Shown here: positions 788-11,973 of the stretch, piece by piece | How the letters are laid out: every line of letters starts with the position of its first letter | Numbering within the stretch: the stretch's first letter is position 1 | Assembly: GCA_947170225.1 (NCBI GenBank) | Contig: CAMVSQ010000009.1 | Span: 1 to 37,404, forward strand | From: an uncultured bacterium | GTDB lineage: Bacteria; Patescibacteriota; Gracilibacteria; Absconditabacterales; Absconditicoccaceae | DNA length: 37,404 nucleotides | Reading direction: 5' to 3' | Notes under the pieces: generated by a model | What the model saw: the letters and a program-made list of their open reading frames with translations, nothing else | The model's database searches: none | What the model was told of the DNA's origin: nothing | Position numbers and translations under genes: made by a program

Positions 788-1048
788 ATGGGAAAAGGAT
801 ATCACGAAGAATCGGATTACACTGGCGACGCTCACTGCACCATCTACAATGATGAAGGCAGAGAAAGCTGGGATGAGAATTCTCAAGGCGACATCACTGG
901 AGATCATGTAACACTCAATGAAGACCAAGACCAACACTACGATCTTCCAGACAGTAGTGAAGCGAACAACGAGTACACCCCAGAAAGCCAGTATGATGAA
1001 GACAATGGCCCGGATCCTTCGGACTATCGCACCGATAACGATGATTAA
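788..1048 (+). CDS. Small acidic hypothetical protein, 86 aa
   Basis: Encodes 86 residues that are extremely acidic and hydrophilic (Asp, Glu, Asn, Ser, Tyr, His), with no signal peptide or membrane segment. The C-terminus PSDYRTDNDD and several DE/DD runs suggest an intrinsically disordered protein. I recognise no family. Codon use is richer in G and C than in neighbouring genes, and all glycines are GGN with no TGA codon, unlike core genes of the window. That pattern fits recent acquisition or unusual selection. A promoter and a palindrome lie upstream and a strong terminator follows, so it is a single-gene unit. It could bind basic proteins or nucleic-acid-binding partners, but nothing here shows that. 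Confidence 0.6.
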   Translation: MGKGYHEESDYTGDAHCTIYNDEGRESWDENSQGDITGDHVTLNEDQDQHYDLPDSSEANNEYTPESQYDEDNGPDPSDYRTDNDD

Positions 1049-5616: not shown

Positions 5617-6978
5617 TTAGTATGTTCAATCATTTTTTTCTCATTTTTCAGTTTCCACAAACTTCATAATACTTGCCATAAATTTCAATTCAACTTCTCA
5701 AACTGCTCCATTTCTATTTTTTCTAACACAAACATCAGTTGCTCATTTTTTATCTGTATCTGGATCATAATAATCCTCTCTATGCAACATAATTACACTA
5801 TCCGCATCCTGCTCTATTGCTCCAGACTCCCTAAGATCACTAAGTTGTGGCTTTTTGTCTACCCTCTGCTCAACATTACGAGAAAGTTGAGACAAAGCTA
5901 TGATAGGTACTTCAAGCTCTTTTGCCAATTCTTTTAATCATCTTGAAATTTCACTGATTTCCTGAACTCTATTTCACTCATAGCTTGTTCATCTCATCAA
6001 CTGCAAATAATCTATAATTACAAGGTCCAAAGCTCATTTTTCTATTTTCAATCTCCTCAATTTTGATTTCAAAACAGGAACTGTAAGTCATCACTGATCA
6101 TCAATAAATATTTTTTTGCTACCTAACAATGAAATTGCTTCTCCCATATTTGAAAAATCCTCATTATCCAATTCTCATTTAGTGATTTTCGACATTGGAA
6201 TCTGAGAAACTTCAGCAACCATCCTATCAACAATCGACTCTGAACTCATTTCCAAAGAAAATATTGCAACCAATTTGTCCTGTTGCATTGAAACATTTGA
6301 AACCACATTTAATGCAAAAGATGTTTTTCACATAGACGGTCTTGCTGCCAGAATAATCAATTCTCAAGGCTTGAATCCTGCCAACATATCATCCAATCAC
6401 TTATATCATGAAAACACCTTTTTCTCATTTATTTTTTCAGGATTATCTATTATCGAAACATATTCCTCCACTCTCGAATTCAAAATATCAGAAATCGATT
6501 CAATTCACTCTCATGTCTGATTTTGTGTCAAATCAAATATTTTTTTCTCAATAGATTCCATGATTGAAACAGTATCATCTTGCTTATACACATCTCAAAT
6601 AATTCATTGAGAAACTTTCAAAATACTTCTCAAAATCGACTTATCTTTCACAATTTTAGAATAATCTCCACAACCAGAAGTTGATAACAAAAAAGTCGAT
6701 AAATCATACAAATAATCCATTCATCAAATATCCATCAATTTTCAATCTTTCTGCAACTGATCTCAAACAGTCACTACATCAATAGTTTTACGATCTCCCC
6801 ACAATTTTTTTACTGCAGAATAAATTGCTTGATGCTCTTTCTGATAAAAATCAGCAGGTTCCAACTTATCTGCATCATAAATCCAAATAGTTTCATTGTC
6901 CATCAAAGCTCAAGCCAAAACTCCTTTTTCAGCTTCTAGATTTTGTGGTGGTGTCTTGATATCATCCATAGTAACCAT
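5617..6978 (-). CDS. dnaB: Replicative DNA helicase DnaB, 453 aa
   Basis: The hexameric helicase that unwinds DNA ahead of the replisome. Normal length for the family. The N-terminal helical domain begins [20 protein letters not shown], the usual 'P.nleAE..vLG.ll.d'. The RecA-like domain shows [19 protein letters not shown], Walker A ARPSMGKTSFALN (near residue 215), FSLEMSSE, Walker B-type [10 protein letters not shown], and [29 protein letters not shown]. The last residues read ETEKGEKNDGTY, then TAA. Many Gly are TGA. A structured RNA gene lies downstream and a short repeat element upstream, so it appears to be transcribed alone. Confidence 0.95.
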
Positions 6979-7013
6979 AAGATAATTGAGATGAAGAATT
7001 AAAATTAAACATA

Positions 7014-7091
7014 TCATTCTGAATTTATACAGCTATGCTGTACGAAGTGAAGAATCTATTTTAAGATTCTTCGACCACTGCCTCAGAATGA
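7014..7091. repeat. Short hairpin repeat (REP-like)
   Basis: TCATTCTGA (7014-7022) and TCAGAATGA (7083-7091) bound an element with inner hairpins ACAGC/GCTGT and AAGAATCT/AGATTCTT. Elements of the form TCATTCTGA...AAGAATCT...AGATTCTT...TCAGAATGA are widespread in bacterial spacers, to my knowledge. It sits upstream of dnaB. The remainder of 6979-7274 is AT-rich with nothing recognisable. Confidence 0.6.
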
Positions 7092-7274
7092 CAATCACAC
7101 ATTAACTATATACAAAAAAATATTTTTATTTCAAGAGAAAATACCAGTTTTTAACTAGTATTTCCAACACAATATTAACATTTTTTCAACACTATTTTTT
7201 AATCAATTTATTACTTGAGAAACACACAAAAAATATTTATAATAAAATATCATTTAAATTATTTCTGCCAAAGA

Positions 7275-7562
7275 ATGCCAAAATCACCACTCACAAAACT
7301 ACCAAATATCTGACCAGTAATAGCAGACAACCTAATGAAAATCTGAATTACGACACCTGAAGAATTCCTTAAAAGAGATCCTTATGAAATTTTTCATGAA
7401 CTAAAAACCAAAGTTGACCATACACTTTGTCGCTGTGCATTAGCATCAATAGTTTGAGCTCACGAATGAAAAAAACGAAATTTTATACGCAAAGAGTCAG
7501 AAGAAAACTACCTAAAAAAATATCCAAACGATAAGTTTGATACCACGCGAAAAAATTGCTAA
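7275..7562 (+). CDS. Helix-hairpin-helix protein resembling the TfoX C-terminal domain, 95 aa
   Basis: Starts MPKSPLTKLPNIGPVIADNL: the LPNIGPVIADNLMKIGI stretch is a helix-hairpin-helix as in the C-terminal domain of TfoX/Sxy (L.niG...a..L...GI.t...L). The following KRDPYEIFHELK and CRCALASIVGAHEG fit that domain too. All four glycines (NIGP, KIGI, VGAHEG) are TGA codons, so without recoding the gene is invisible. Only the C-terminal domain is present; the N-terminal TfoX half is absent. Such stand-alone domains are usually annotated as 'helix-hairpin-helix' or 'pathogenicity locus' proteins; role unknown, probably DNA binding. Confidence 0.75.
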
Positions 7563-7618
7563 ATAAGTTTCAAAAAAATAACATATTTTAAATTAAAACT
7601 TTTCCCTACAAAAGAATA

Positions 7619-7670
7619 GAGATTCTAGTAACTCAACATTACAAAACGCAAATTAAGCCACTAGAATCTC
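7619..7670 (-). terminator. 3' hairpin of cassette gene A
   Basis: Perfect 11-bp inverted repeat GAGATTCTAGT (7619-7629) with ACTAGAATCTC (7660-7670), loop about 30 nt. A related hairpin (8162-8216) follows the paralogous gene at 8263-8577, and the two 3' flanks align over about 65 nt, both beginning with CAATGA and a T-run. The right arm of the stem contains the TAG that ends gene A under code 25. Confidence 0.55.
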
Positions 7671-7993
7671 ACAAAAAATCATTGTTTTTTTTTCACAGCC
7701 GACATTTCAAGACGGCGTTTCTCCTGCTCGGAAAGTGCATCAGGTCTCAAGTCATAGATCACCCTAAGGATTTTCTTTGGAAGCGGATTCCCAAGCCGCT
7801 TATGATGCAAAGCACATTCCACAAGTTTCTGAGGCGTCACTGATTTCGCGGTCAAACCGCCATTGACCCTCTGAATAACCAAGTTACCTGACTTCGCATC
7901 ATAGTAAATCCGATGCTTCTCGAAAGAATCAAGTCGATTCTTCGGCACTCCAAGTTCAAGGAGTTGTTCTTTTCGTTTCTGTTTTGGATCCAT
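7661..7993 (-). CDS. Cassette gene A: basic small protein, 104 aa plus code-25 extension
   Basis: From MDPKQKRK (ATG 7993) the frame runs 104 codons to a TGA at 7681-7679. Read as Gly it continues GFFVRF to TAG at 7661 (110 aa). The core is basic, with LLELGVPKNR near the start and GNPLPKKILRVIY near residues 68-80; both match the paralogue at 8263-8577 (LLEAGVPERH, GVPLSKVALRDLY). All five other Gly are GGN. An upstream in-frame ATG at 8047 exists, but that extension would cover the palindrome at 8008-8027 and lacks a paralogue counterpart. Family unknown. The paralogue's stop is TAG at the equivalent place, so this TGA may be an inherited stop. Confidence 0.65.
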
Positions 7994-8007
7994 TTTATAA
8001 ACGATTA

Positions 8008-8027
8008 CCACGACAACGTTATCGTGG
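8008..8027. promoter_or_regulatory. Dyad upstream of cassette gene A
   Basis: Minus-strand sequence CCACGATAACGTTGTCGTGG, an almost perfect 20-bp palindrome 14 nt before the ATG. Its core ACGTTGT is identical to that of the dyad upstream of cassette gene B. It could be an operator or an mRNA hairpin that presents the core in the loop. Confidence 0.5.
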
Positions 8028-8161
8028 GCAAAGTTAAATATATACAAACAAGAATCTAAGTCAAGACATAATAATATTTTTATCCCATTTTACTCATAAA
8101 ATTATTGAATCAATAAACAAAAATTTTTTCATATTAGATAATACTATATAAAAAAAATAGA

Positions 8162-8216
8162 GATCCTACTAATCCAACACCACCAAACATGAATAATTGA
8201 ATCAATAGAATCTCAA
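8162..8216 (-). terminator. 3' hairpin of cassette gene B
   Basis: GAGATCCTA pairs with TAGAATCTC (one mismatch), wide loop. The minus-strand order after the stop (CAATGA, T-run, GAGATTCTA) repeats that behind gene A. Confidence 0.5.
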
Positions 8217-8262
8217 AAAAGTCATTGCTGTTAACACCTTTTCGGAGTTATCCTTCGCTCAC

Positions 8263-8577
8263 CTACCTTCTCCGTTTTTTAGGCCACTTCATTTTGCCTA
8301 TACGATGAAGTTCATCTTTAGATAGCTTAACACCACCTGCATAGAGATCTCTCAAAGCAACCTTTGAAAGAGGCACACCCGAGGAACGAAAATCAAGCAA
8401 CCCTGAAACAACAGATGCCTTAGAATCGCAAGGCACTGTTTTCAGCTTATTATCCTTAATAATAAGGATTCGATCCCTAGTTCTAGTAACATAAGGCATT
8501 CCCTTATCTAGGATTGAGAAATGCCTTTCAGGCACACCAGCCTCTAGCAAACTGTTTTTTAATGATTCCGTTAACAT
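8263..8577 (-). CDS. Cassette gene B: basic small protein, 104 aa, paralogue of gene A
   Basis: Starts MLTESLKNSLLEAGVPERHF and ends KMKWPKKRRR, TAG stop. It aligns with gene A at a constant one-residue offset: LLE-x-GVP near residue 10-16 and G-x-PL-x-K-x-x-LR-x-[IL]Y near 67-79, followed by a basic tail. No membrane segment or signal peptide. All seven glycines are GGN and none TGA, and G/C-ending codons are common, unlike core genes nearby. It has its own dyad upstream and hairpin downstream, so each paralogue is a one-gene cassette. The basic tail suggests nucleic-acid or membrane contact. I know no family for it. Confidence 0.7.
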   Translation of the reverse strand: MLTESLKNSLLEAGVPERHFSILDKGMPYVTRTRDRILIIKDNKLKTVPCDSKASVVSGLLDFRSSGVPLSKVALRDLYAGGVKLSKDELHRIGKMKWPKKRRR

Positions 8578-8592
8578 AACTAAGATTTTTAT

Positions 8593-8613
8593 ACCAAAAC
8601 AACGTGTCTTGGT
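8593..8613. promoter_or_regulatory. Dyad upstream of cassette gene B
   Basis: On the minus strand ACCAA...TTGGT arms enclose GACACGTTGTT, 15 nt before the ATG at 8577. Position and the core ACGTTGT match the dyad before gene A, while the arms differ in sequence but keep pairing, a compensatory pattern that favours an RNA hairpin. Confidence 0.5.
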
Positions 8614-8702
8614 GTCAGCAATTATAATTATTTATTCAAAAAAGTCAAATATATTACATCATTATTTTTTACAATATTTTTACAAGAATATTTTCAAAAA
8701 AA

Positions 8703-8906
8703 CTAGAAAATATCAACAAAACAAATAACCAAAACAATAGTTAATATAATTGGCCAAGATTTTTTGAATTCACTTTTAAATATTTGCTTTCGACTTTTCC
8801 ATGCCCTTTGACGAGCAATTTCAATCAGACAATAAACTACAGTACATACACAAAAAACAATCAAACATTCTAATACAAACCTTAATAATCAGGCAAAAAA
8901 GTTCAT
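8703..8906 (-). CDS. Small two-TM membrane protein, 67 aa
   Basis: Starts MNFFAGLLRFVLECLIVFCV. Two hydrophobic segments (about 5-27 and 49-65) flank a basic cytoplasmic loop EIARQRAWKSRKQIFKSEFK. One Gly is TGA. It is the last gene of the long minus-strand series from ftsH (15760) downward, about 70 nt after the nucleotidyltransferase gene. Nothing in it points to a function; the size and topology resemble small membrane peptides that are often missed. Confidence 0.55.
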
Positions 8907-8975
8907 TTTATACAAATTAAAATCTAAAATATATATTTTTTTCATATTTCATTCTTAATTCTTAATTATTAATTC

Positions 8976-9797
8976 TTAATTATTTTCATACTCCTCTATT
9001 TGCTTTTTCACAATAGCTTCATCATCTGGATTTGTCACTCCAAACCATTGATCAGGAGTCGAATAAATTTTCATATTTACTCACGTATTTTTGATAATAT
9101 TCGTCAATTCTACTGGCAAATAGCATTCAATTCTCCTATCTCAAACATGCTCTTTTTTGAATTCAGCCAAAATTTCACTCAACATCTCCAGAGCTTTCCT
9201 ATTTAAACCAAAAATATTCATACTACACAAAGCATCCAATGTTAATCCAAAATCAGATAATTTAGATTTTTCAATTCAGATTGTCTCATTAATATTTTTT
9301 ACATATCAATCCTCTACCGTAAAAATTCACCTGTTAGTACTTCCTATTTCAGGAATTACATTTCACAAAATATATCATAAAGTACACAATTCATCAGGAT
9401 TATTTGCCAAATGATCATACAAAATTTTGAACGAATTTTTTCCATAAATGTCATCACCATTACAAACAACAAATGGTCAATCAATACAAGGTAACGCAGA
9501 ACAAACAGCATCTACAGTTCCCCAAGGTCTGTCTCTATCAGCTTCATCAAAAGTTTGTTTTGCATATTCTACAGGGATTCATTGATAGTTATCACCAAAC
9601 ATTTCTCTAAAAGGTCATTCAGTCATTTTTCAAACAATAAACACAATCTTTGAAAATCATGCTGGCAATGCTTGACTCAAAGAGTACTCAATCAAAGTAG
9701 AATCATTTGGTCAAACTTTTGCAAATTGCTTAATTCTTCATCCAAAACGAGAAGACATTCCTGCTACCATGTAAACAAGTGAAATGTTTTTTTCCAT
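8976..9797 (-). CDS. Sugar-phosphate nucleotidyltransferase, 273 aa
   Basis: A GT-A-fold NTP transferase, which joins a nucleoside triphosphate to a sugar phosphate to make an activated sugar. The signature near the start reads VYMVAGMSSRFGGRIKQFAK, a variant of the G-x-G-x-R...K nucleotide-binding loop. PWGTVDAV (about 90-97) is the substrate loop and VVCNGDDIYG (about 110-119) holds the metal-binding Asp. The N-terminal loop is A-G-M-S-S-R-F-G-G where many relatives have G-G-x-G-T-R-L. The exact nucleotide and sugar cannot be read from this. Next to a Nudix hydrolase in the same direction, which suits nucleotide-sugar metabolism. Confidence 0.8.
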
Positions 9798-9829: not shown

Positions 9830-10255
9830 TTAACATTTAAGGAACTTTTTCTCTCAAAACTTTTCTCTCAAAATCAATCACTCTCTTTTTCAAAAGAAGT
9901 CTAATATTCTTTCTCTATGGCTTTCTATAATATTTTCTGGTAATTTGTCTGCTCTAAATCGTCAAAATAATTTTGCTTCATCATTAAAAGACAATTCTCA
10001 TCATATGTTATTACAATGAAAAAGAAAGACTAAATCTTTCTCATCTTTTTTATTGTATAATCAAACTAACGAAATTACTGATGAATCAAGTCATGTCTCT
10101 TCCTTAATTTCACGAATAACAGCATTCCATGGCGCTTCTCATTCTTCCACTCATCATCACGGTAAATTCCATTTATCAATATCATTTCTCAATACCAAAA
10201 GTACACGATTATTTTCATCAAGTATTATTCAAAAAGCTCAAAGAGAAAATGACAT
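9830..10255 (-). CDS. Nudix hydrolase, 141 aa
   Basis: Hydrolyses nucleoside diphosphates linked to another moiety (MutT/NADH-pyrophosphatase-like). The complete Nudix box is present at about residues 35-57: G-x5-E-x7-REIKEETGL, preceded by three consecutive TGA-encoded glycines (LPGGGVEEGE). Start MSFSLGAFGIILDENNRVLL is the usual first strand. The C-terminus runs on past several TGA to FLKC and TAA. Substrate unknown. It lies 32 nt upstream of the nucleotidyltransferase start and so probably shares its mRNA. Confidence 0.88.
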
Positions 10256-10286
10256 TACAATAGGTTATAAAACAAAGTATATTTGT

Positions 10287-10312
10287 GCCCCTTTACTGAA
10301 AGGGGCTATTTT
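10287..10312 (+). terminator. Hairpin between the Nudix and four-CxxC genes
   Basis: GCCCCTTT (10287-10294) with AAAGGGGC (10299-10306) and loop ACTG; the T-run (10308-10312) is on the plus strand. Flanking genes are on the minus strand, where the T-run is missing, so it may act as an RNA-stability hairpin there rather than as a terminator. Confidence 0.5.
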
Positions 10313-10325
10313 TAATGAGATATTT

Positions 10326-10661
10326 TTACTTTTCCTTATTCCTTTTTTTGTGTCATGAACATTTTTTACATATACTGGAATATCATAGTTTCGTATCATA
10401 CTTAAAATTTCTCATACTCAAATTATATGTTTTGTGACATTTATTACAAACTCTCTTTGGTACGTGTTTCTTACAATCATCACATACTCATGTTACATCT
10501 CATGTATCATCTCTAGTTTGAGGCAGATAAGAGAAACGACTAATAGGTTTAAACGTTTCACACTTTTTACAAAACATTGTAGGCTCTTGGTTTTGTGTTC
10601 AATGCCATTCTGGTCTATCATTTTTAAAATGTGCTTTTAATAAATTAAGTCGTTCTATCAT
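10326..10661 (-). CDS. Four-CxxC zinc-binding protein, 111 aa
   Basis: Contains four Cys pairs: TMFCKKCET (about 29-32), GVCDDCKK (about 63-66), RVCNKCHK (about 75-78) and SICKKCSG (about 99-102), enough for two zinc ribbons or treble-clef units. The ends are basic (HKKRNKEK). Start MIERLNLLKAHFKN. No catalytic residues are obvious. The layout recalls the Cys-rich part of recombination-endonuclease-VII or HNH proteins, but without the HNH residues. A nucleic-acid-binding role is likely from zinc ribbons plus basic tail; this is inference. It follows the M20-like gene by 10 nt and precedes the Nudix gene. Confidence 0.7.
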
Positions 10662-10671
10662 ATTTAATCCC

Positions 10672-11973
10672 TTATTTCCTAAAAAACTCATACAAAAATT
10701 CTGTTCATTTTTCCAATAATTCCACATCCAAATTTTCATTTATTCCATCAATATTACTATCCACATTTACCAATGGAACATTGACAATATTTTGTACATT
10801 AGACAAAACAGTTTTTGCCACAGGCAATGAAAATCATGATAGAACTTGCCCAACTTTTTTGCCAAAAATCTGAGATAACAAAGTTTCAGCTTTGTTAGCA
10901 AAATAATTTGAAACACTAAATTTTATTGGTTCAGATTCTCACAAAAAACTTATCTCATAATCCAAATCTTTTGCAATATTACTTTTTATCCATTCTTGGA
11001 ATAAACTTTTTATTGCATCCACTTTTTGATTTGGCACAAGTTTAAAATTCAATACTGCACTAGCCTCCTGTTGCAATAATTCCAAAGACAATCCAGTATT
11101 TCAAGAATCAAAACTTACAACTTCTATGCAAGGCTTTCCTCAAATTTTAGAATAATAGTCTATATCATCCAATTTTATAGTTTTAGCTCCAAACTCCTGC
11201 AAAACCAAATCTTTATCAAATGGCAATCTAGCATTCAGTGTTTTTTCATTTGCAGAAATATCATCCATTTCATAATAAAAATAAGGAATCGTTATACGAT
11301 TATTTGAATCATAAATCTTTGACAAAAGTTTGCTCAATTCTTGAATAGAATTTTGCAAAATTCATCAATACTGTGAAACTATTGATATTTTTTCTGCAGT
11401 TTTTACCTTAATTTTTGCATTAAAAGATCACCTAAATCATGTAGTCAAAATAGGATTATTTTGTATCACTGTTCATATATTTGAAAAAAAGAAATCTGCT
11501 TTAAAATTATTCTCTTGAAACAATTTTATCAAATTTTTAGATCATTTCAATTTTTCTCATTCAATCACAAAAATTATGTTATATTTCAATTTATTTTCCT
11601 CAATTAATTTGAAAATATTAAACATATTCAACAAAGTTATAGCTTTTCCACCAGCCAATCCTCTACCAAAAATTTTATCTTTTCAAAAATACAAAGAAAA
11701 TGGATCATCTTTCCATCAATCTTTCATTTCTGCAACATTCACATCATAATTTCAGTAAATAACTCAAGTTTCACATTCTGATCAAACATCATATTGAGCC
11801 AATATTATAGGTGATTCTTGTCAGTTCACAACTCTGACATTAAAACCACTTTTTACAAACAAATTATACAACCATTCTCCACATTTTTTATGCTCTTTTA
11901 CACAATCATTTCCAAATGGCAATGTTTTAAAAGAAAGAAATTCTCTCAATAATGCATAATATTCAGCATTCAT
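10672..11973 (-). CDS. M20-family peptidase homologue lacking the metal ligands, 433 aa
   Basis: Length and sequence order fit M20 dipeptidases (PepV/CNDP type): VIYGNYDVNVAE (about 72-83; family YGHYDVQP), WKDDPFSLYFGKDKIFGRGLAGGKA (about 90-113; family GRG..D.KG), VIEGEKLKGSKNL (about 136-148; family EGEEEIGS), FSNIGT (about 163; family D), then FRGSFNAKIKVKT and SGFSLPV (family GGSIP). At each metal or catalytic position the usual residue is replaced: His to Asn, bridging Asp to Gly, Glu-Glu to Lys-Leu, Asp to Asn, terminal His lost. It is thus probably a pseudoenzyme: binding or scaffolding rather than cleavage. Embedded in the ftsH-side gene series, 24 nt after the TPR gene. Confidence 0.8.

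Follow-up and report, generated by a model that had tools for sequence, protein, structure and literature searches.

What are two small genes of matching design doing head to tail between a DnaB gene and a nucleotidyltransferase gene, and where did they come from? The window, the whole 37,404-nucleotide stretch analysed here, is contig C9 of a 952,577-base Absconditicoccaceae genome (completeness 94%) in which TGA codes for about 62% (61.5%) of the glycines in the genes. A sequence-only reading of the locus had described the two genes, here called A and B, as paralogous single-gene cassettes and had suggested a gene family that spreads or duplicates as a unit.

Two related one-gene units

The locus has the following features, in window coordinates:

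5617-7017: DnaB gene, a chromosomal neighbour conserved in relatives
7018-8975 (unstranded): lineage-specific insert between the DnaB and nucleotidyltransferase genes, from comparison with the congeneric genome G001
7610-7681, minus strand: 3′ element of A, with a T-run, a 23-bp RNA hairpin (7619-7670) and a T-rich tail; probable terminator
7679-7993, minus strand: ORF A, a basic protein of 104 aa (pI 10.1) when TGA is read as stop
8008-8027, minus strand: leader dyad of A, CCACGATAACGTTGTCGTGG, 14 nt before the ATG
8037-8064, minus strand: promoter-like site of A, TTGACT-N16-TATATT, 10/12 match
8151-8228, minus strand: 3′ element of B, with CAATGA, a T-run, a 23-bp RNA hairpin (8160-8214) and a T-run; probable terminator
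8263-8577, minus strand: ORF B, a basic protein of 104 aa (pI 10.3), remote paralog of A
8593-8613, minus strand: leader dyad of B, ACCAAGACACGTTGTTTTGGT, 15 nt before the ATG
8621-8648, minus strand: promoter-like site of B, TTGACT-N16-TATAAT, 11/12 match
8976-9797: nucleotidyltransferase gene, a chromosomal neighbour conserved in relatives

The two units are about 541 nt apart. Both ORFs carry the shared motifs LLExGVP and GxPLxKxxLRx[IL]Y that had been noted earlier, and the kinship of the proteins is above chance: they align over nearly their full length at 25–29% identity (pairwise BLASTP E 6e-6), and in a six-frame search of the genome A and B are each other's sole match (phmmer E 0.015 for A). 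AlphaFold2 models of the pair (pLDDT 84 and 74) place two helices, three strands and three helices in a common order at nearly identical positions; since B was part of the alignment used for A, the models are only partly independent of each other. Judged by sequence, A and B are remote paralogs, that is, distantly related small genes. The length of A depends on the genetic code. Under the standard code it ends at 7679 and its 104 aa equal the length of B, while under the host code, with TGA as glycine, it runs on as Q-GFFVRF to a TAG at 7661, giving 110 aa (7661-7993).

The promoter-like sites of A and B have identical N16 spacing, and in both units the leader dyad sits between this site and the ATG, at the distance of 14-15 nt reported before. 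The dyads fold more weakly than the 3′ hairpins (z about −2); by folding energy, the leaders of A and B rank 2nd and 5th among 118 promoter-linked leaders of the genome. The correspondence of ORFs, promoter spacing, dyad position and 3′ element, head to tail, supports the proposed duplication as a unit. The proposed spread does not hold up in the same way: searches with the proteins and with a covariance model of the 3′ element returned only A and B in the genome, and none of the collections searched yielded a relative. Neither spread as a family nor a novel type of mobile cassette is supported.

Searches with the single sequences and with a two-row profile found no relatives of A or B in 59 relatives, 380 genomes of the phylum, IMG/VR, GTDB contigs, plasmid records or 50,697 phage records, the profile being a weak one that may have missed distant relatives. 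Some weak partial matches in the phylum, of which the best had E 0.0055 and several contained internal stops, were attributed to chance. The proteins had no profile match over cut-off in Pfam, NCBIfam, PHROGs or PADLOC, in agreement with the earlier statement that no described family resembles them, and no relative among PDB sequences. Fold searches with the models gave no clear structural match, the best Z scores of 4.5 and 4.7 lying within noise, as do single rows such as SpoIISA (Z 4.5).

Foreign composition and probable origin

In G001, the only congeneric genome, with proteins about 70% identical to those of this genome, the nucleotidyltransferase gene comes directly next to the DnaB gene, at a distance of about 355 nt and without A and B. 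The corresponding gap here is 1.96 kb. It is mixed, since besides A and B it holds a TGA-containing gene (7215-7562) and a small ORF (8703-8945), whose arrival may have been separate from that of A and B. A second lineage-specific insert lies at 9830-10739, where two ORFs (one NUDIX-like by eye, one cysteine-rich) separate peptidase-like and nucleotidyltransferase genes that are adjacent in G001. Elsewhere in the window, an acidic 86-aa ORF at 788-1048 (plus strand; GC 47%, seven glycines, zero TGA), followed by a strong hairpin, is a candidate acquired unit.

The composition of A and B differs from that of the genome. Their GC contents are 44.6% and 40.4%, versus 30% for the genome, and the spacers around them have 19–25%. 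A codon log-likelihood as low as that of A occurred in none of 954 host samples, each 100 codons long, and one as low as that of B in a single sample. None of the 12 glycines of A and B is coded by TGA, versus 61.5% in the genome (p about 1e-5), the TGA at the end of A not being counted. The earlier claim that neither gene uses a TGA glycine codon is thus correct for these 12 residues and has to be qualified for A, where a single TGA stands in frame at the end of the gene. By these measures both ORFs look foreign, and a standard-code bacterium or phage is their most likely source.

Could A and B instead be native but fast-evolving genes, with a composition that reflects selection (for example, for high expression) and not transfer? 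The failure to find an outside relative in the collections searched and the match of both promoters to the host's usual N16 type agree with such an origin. Against it, A and B lie at the extreme in codon usage and GC even among all long host ORFs, TGA codes for none of the 12 glycines, the genes are absent at the same junction in G001, and the hairpin model has no match in 48 other genomes of the family. We therefore regard a native origin as unlikely.

Instead, A and B are probably a tandem pair of horizontally acquired, paralogous orphan genes that form self-contained, moron-like units. In each unit, a sigma-70-type promoter would be followed by a hairpin or operator in the leader, then by the gene for a basic protein of 104 aa, and finally by a strong RNA hairpin that most likely ends transcription of the one-gene unit; promoter and terminator activity are inferred here from sequence features. 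The donor, presumably a standard-code bacterium or a phage, would be one in which TGA does not mean glycine, and the point of entry would lie between the nucleotidyltransferase and DnaB genes. Such insulation would let A and B be expressed alone and leave their neighbours undisturbed, and their function would be most like that of phage 'morons' or similar accessory genes. Some findings go against this explanation. The ORFs have only 38% nucleotide identity (38.5% when codon-aligned), while the 3′ elements have kept 80%. Plain duplication would have left the coding sequence better conserved. The collections searched also yielded no donor or homolog from which to read source and direction of transfer.

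Phage morons are accessory single-gene units in prophages. Like them, A and B are genes of foreign composition, each with a promoter and a stem-loop terminator of its own, set between conserved neighbours. At the sequence level they resemble autonomous one-gene units (promoter-like sites, hairpins with T-runs), and their base composition is unlike that of the surrounding genes. In contrast to morons, they stand among chromosomal genes, the neighbours being DnaB and nucleotidyltransferase, and no phage genes were recognised nearby, which is why we call them 'moron-like' and not morons. They further differ in being two tandem paralogs, in encoding orphan proteins and in having a leader dyad as well. 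Predicted phages of Gracilibacteria/Absconditabacteria can lack in-frame TGA and put several stops at gene ends (PMC10746230). As in these standard-code-compatible phage genes, the gene bodies of A and B are free of in-frame TGA, and A has a second stop (TAG) close behind its terminal TGA. Unlike those genes, A and B lie outside any phage genome and have no homolog among the phage records or in IMG/VR. These phage traits would fit a phage route for A and B but do not demonstrate one.

The 3′ hairpins

The 3′ elements are homologous, with 80% identity over 71 aligned nt (z 16 versus shuffles), and the conservation extends to unpaired and flanking bases. The similar hairpins and T-run described earlier are thus present, and the folding energy of both hairpins is far lower than in shuffled sequences (z −8.6 and −7.0). 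The further description of a hairpin following CAATGA applies as sequence to both units; this motif ends the ORF only in A, whereas in B it lies about 35 nt past the TAG stop and out of frame. Between the copies, 10 of the 23 stem pairs differ, three of them by changes on both sides, and all ten are still standard pairs on the gene strand. Shifting the partner columns lowers pairing to 30–50%; a shuffle control, weak with two sequences, reached the observed values in 57 of 500 shuffles. On the opposite strand the G-U pairs turn into mismatches and the element folds poorly. The hairpin therefore seems to be maintained as RNA, which points to selection on the gene-strand transcript.

The simplest reading of the hairpin is an intrinsic terminator, although hairpin A is followed by a tail (TATTCTTTTG) that is weak for a terminator. 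That the 3′ element has outlasted the ORF could reflect strong constraint, later conversion between the copies or fast divergence of the ORFs. In an end-gap-free alignment, leaders and the DNA past the hairpin showed no similarity between A and B above chance, but this alignment is a blunt tool in which the ORFs failed to align too. An Rfam search of the window returned two tRNAs and nothing else. Exact-pattern searches matched arms of one hairpin in two IMG/VR contigs and of one in Telluribacter; the neighbouring ORFs are unrelated, and we attribute these matches to chance resemblance. The genome is rich in dispersed REP-like hairpins such as GTCATTCTGAACGAAGTGAAGAATCT...AGAATGAC at many intergenic sites (for example, after C2:15954-16568, C2:17242-18018 and C1:25324-26097). 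A dispersed-repeat reading of the A/B element was rejected, as it has only two copies.

More than termination may be at work. The hairpin could be an RNA element with sequence specificity; the basic protein encoded by the unit might bind it and, together with the leader dyad, form an autoregulatory loop. A 3′ element far better conserved than its ORF, down to unpaired and flanking bases, is in line with this idea, as are pairing that survives ten changed pairs, the high pI of both proteins and leader dyads that are unusual for the genome. From charge, one might guess that A and B are nucleic-acid-binding accessory proteins. However, a terminator by itself accounts for hairpin and T-run, two sequences cannot distinguish constraint from recent conversion between copies, and the fold searches recognised no RNA- or DNA-binding fold in A or B. 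Overall, we consider an RNA element of this kind improbable. The conservation of a hairpin beyond that of its gene is a question in its own right.

Tandem single-gene units in one orientation, each with a 3′ hairpin, also call to mind integron gene cassettes, with the hairpin as attC site. GTTRRRY is indeed present in the descending arm of both hairpins. In an attC site, R″ (RYYYAAC) and R′ (GTTRRRY) occupy the stem ends; here, the core lies within the stem, and RYYYAAC is absent from the gene strand of both elements. The stems depend on G-U pairs, which would be mismatches in DNA, so that pairing is at the RNA rather than the DNA level. Unlike cassettes, A and B have promoter-like sites of their own, and the genome contains no match over the integron-integrase cut-off, all TIGR02249 matches falling below it. 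An integron origin is thus very unlikely. Equally implausible are non-autonomous single-stranded DNA units of the IS200/IS605 type: a hairpin does lie near each end of each unit, but there are only two copies, the hairpins are of RNA type with G-U pairs, and no Y1 (TnpA) transposase was found in the genome, though mobilisation of a non-autonomous copy from elsewhere is conceivable.

TGA-free single genes across the genome

A search for TGA-free genes with at least five GGN glycines, based on plain ORF calls and not on curated annotation, returned a set of single genes. These roughly 25 genes, often GC-rich and enriched for a strong TTGAC[AT]-N16-TATAAT promoter and a terminator, are probable horizontal acquisitions. 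For comparison, we used class genes of at least 80 aa (n = 25) and 334 TGA-rich genes with at least 100 nt upstream. A strong promoter (11 or 12 of 12 matches) precedes 13/25 TGA-free and 31/334 TGA-rich genes (Fisher p 4e-7), and a terminator follows 13/25 and 40/334, respectively (Fisher p 5e-6). In length-matched sets, both occur together in 9/20 versus 8/199 genes (p 1e-6). In G006, a second genome of the family of which 800 kb were read, terminators (5/11 versus 11/170, p 0.001) and the combination (4/11 versus 6/170, p 0.001) were enriched, while strong promoters alone were not (2/11 versus 13/170, p 0.23). N16 is the host's usual promoter type, being the commonest spacing among its TGA-rich genes as well.

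Examples of TGA-free single genes are C1:102460-103083, C2:88439-89836, C4:14134-14634, C4:57316-58596, C6:30705-30956, C7:5229-5723, C7:15423-16472 and C10:11012-12046. The product of C7:15423-16472 is a secreted protein that carries a Por secretion sorting tail of the Bacteroidota type and has a signal-peptide region in common with C1:127147-127623. C10:11012-12046, TGA-free and GC-rich, is one of two thymidylate synthase genes and likely an acquired copy alongside C1:73037-73864, the presumably native one, which has seven TGA glycines. The small ORF C1:53970-54188, whose I-HmuI NUMOD-like match is weak and under the cut-off, has its sole TGA near its end, shortly before a TAG, as in A.

A and B belong to this set of stand-alone, probably acquired genes. 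The earlier gene-family proposal is thereby narrowed: the two paralogs stand, and the package around them is common to TGA-free, foreign-looking genes and not diagnostic of a special cassette family. It is conceivable, though doubtful, that selection keeps such one-gene packages TGA-free because they travel between code-25 cells and standard-code partners (prey, host or shared phage) or are expressed in both. If true, the TGA-free packages, including A and B, would amount to a gene pool that crosses genetic codes and shares one insulated format.

In a genome that reads TGA as glycine, genes without it are probably recent arrivals from elsewhere, and the A/B pair is a good illustration. As a lead, the whole TGA-free class is more interesting than the pair: it offers a simple handle on what episymbiotic CPR bacteria take from bacteria and phages, and on how acquired genes become expressed.
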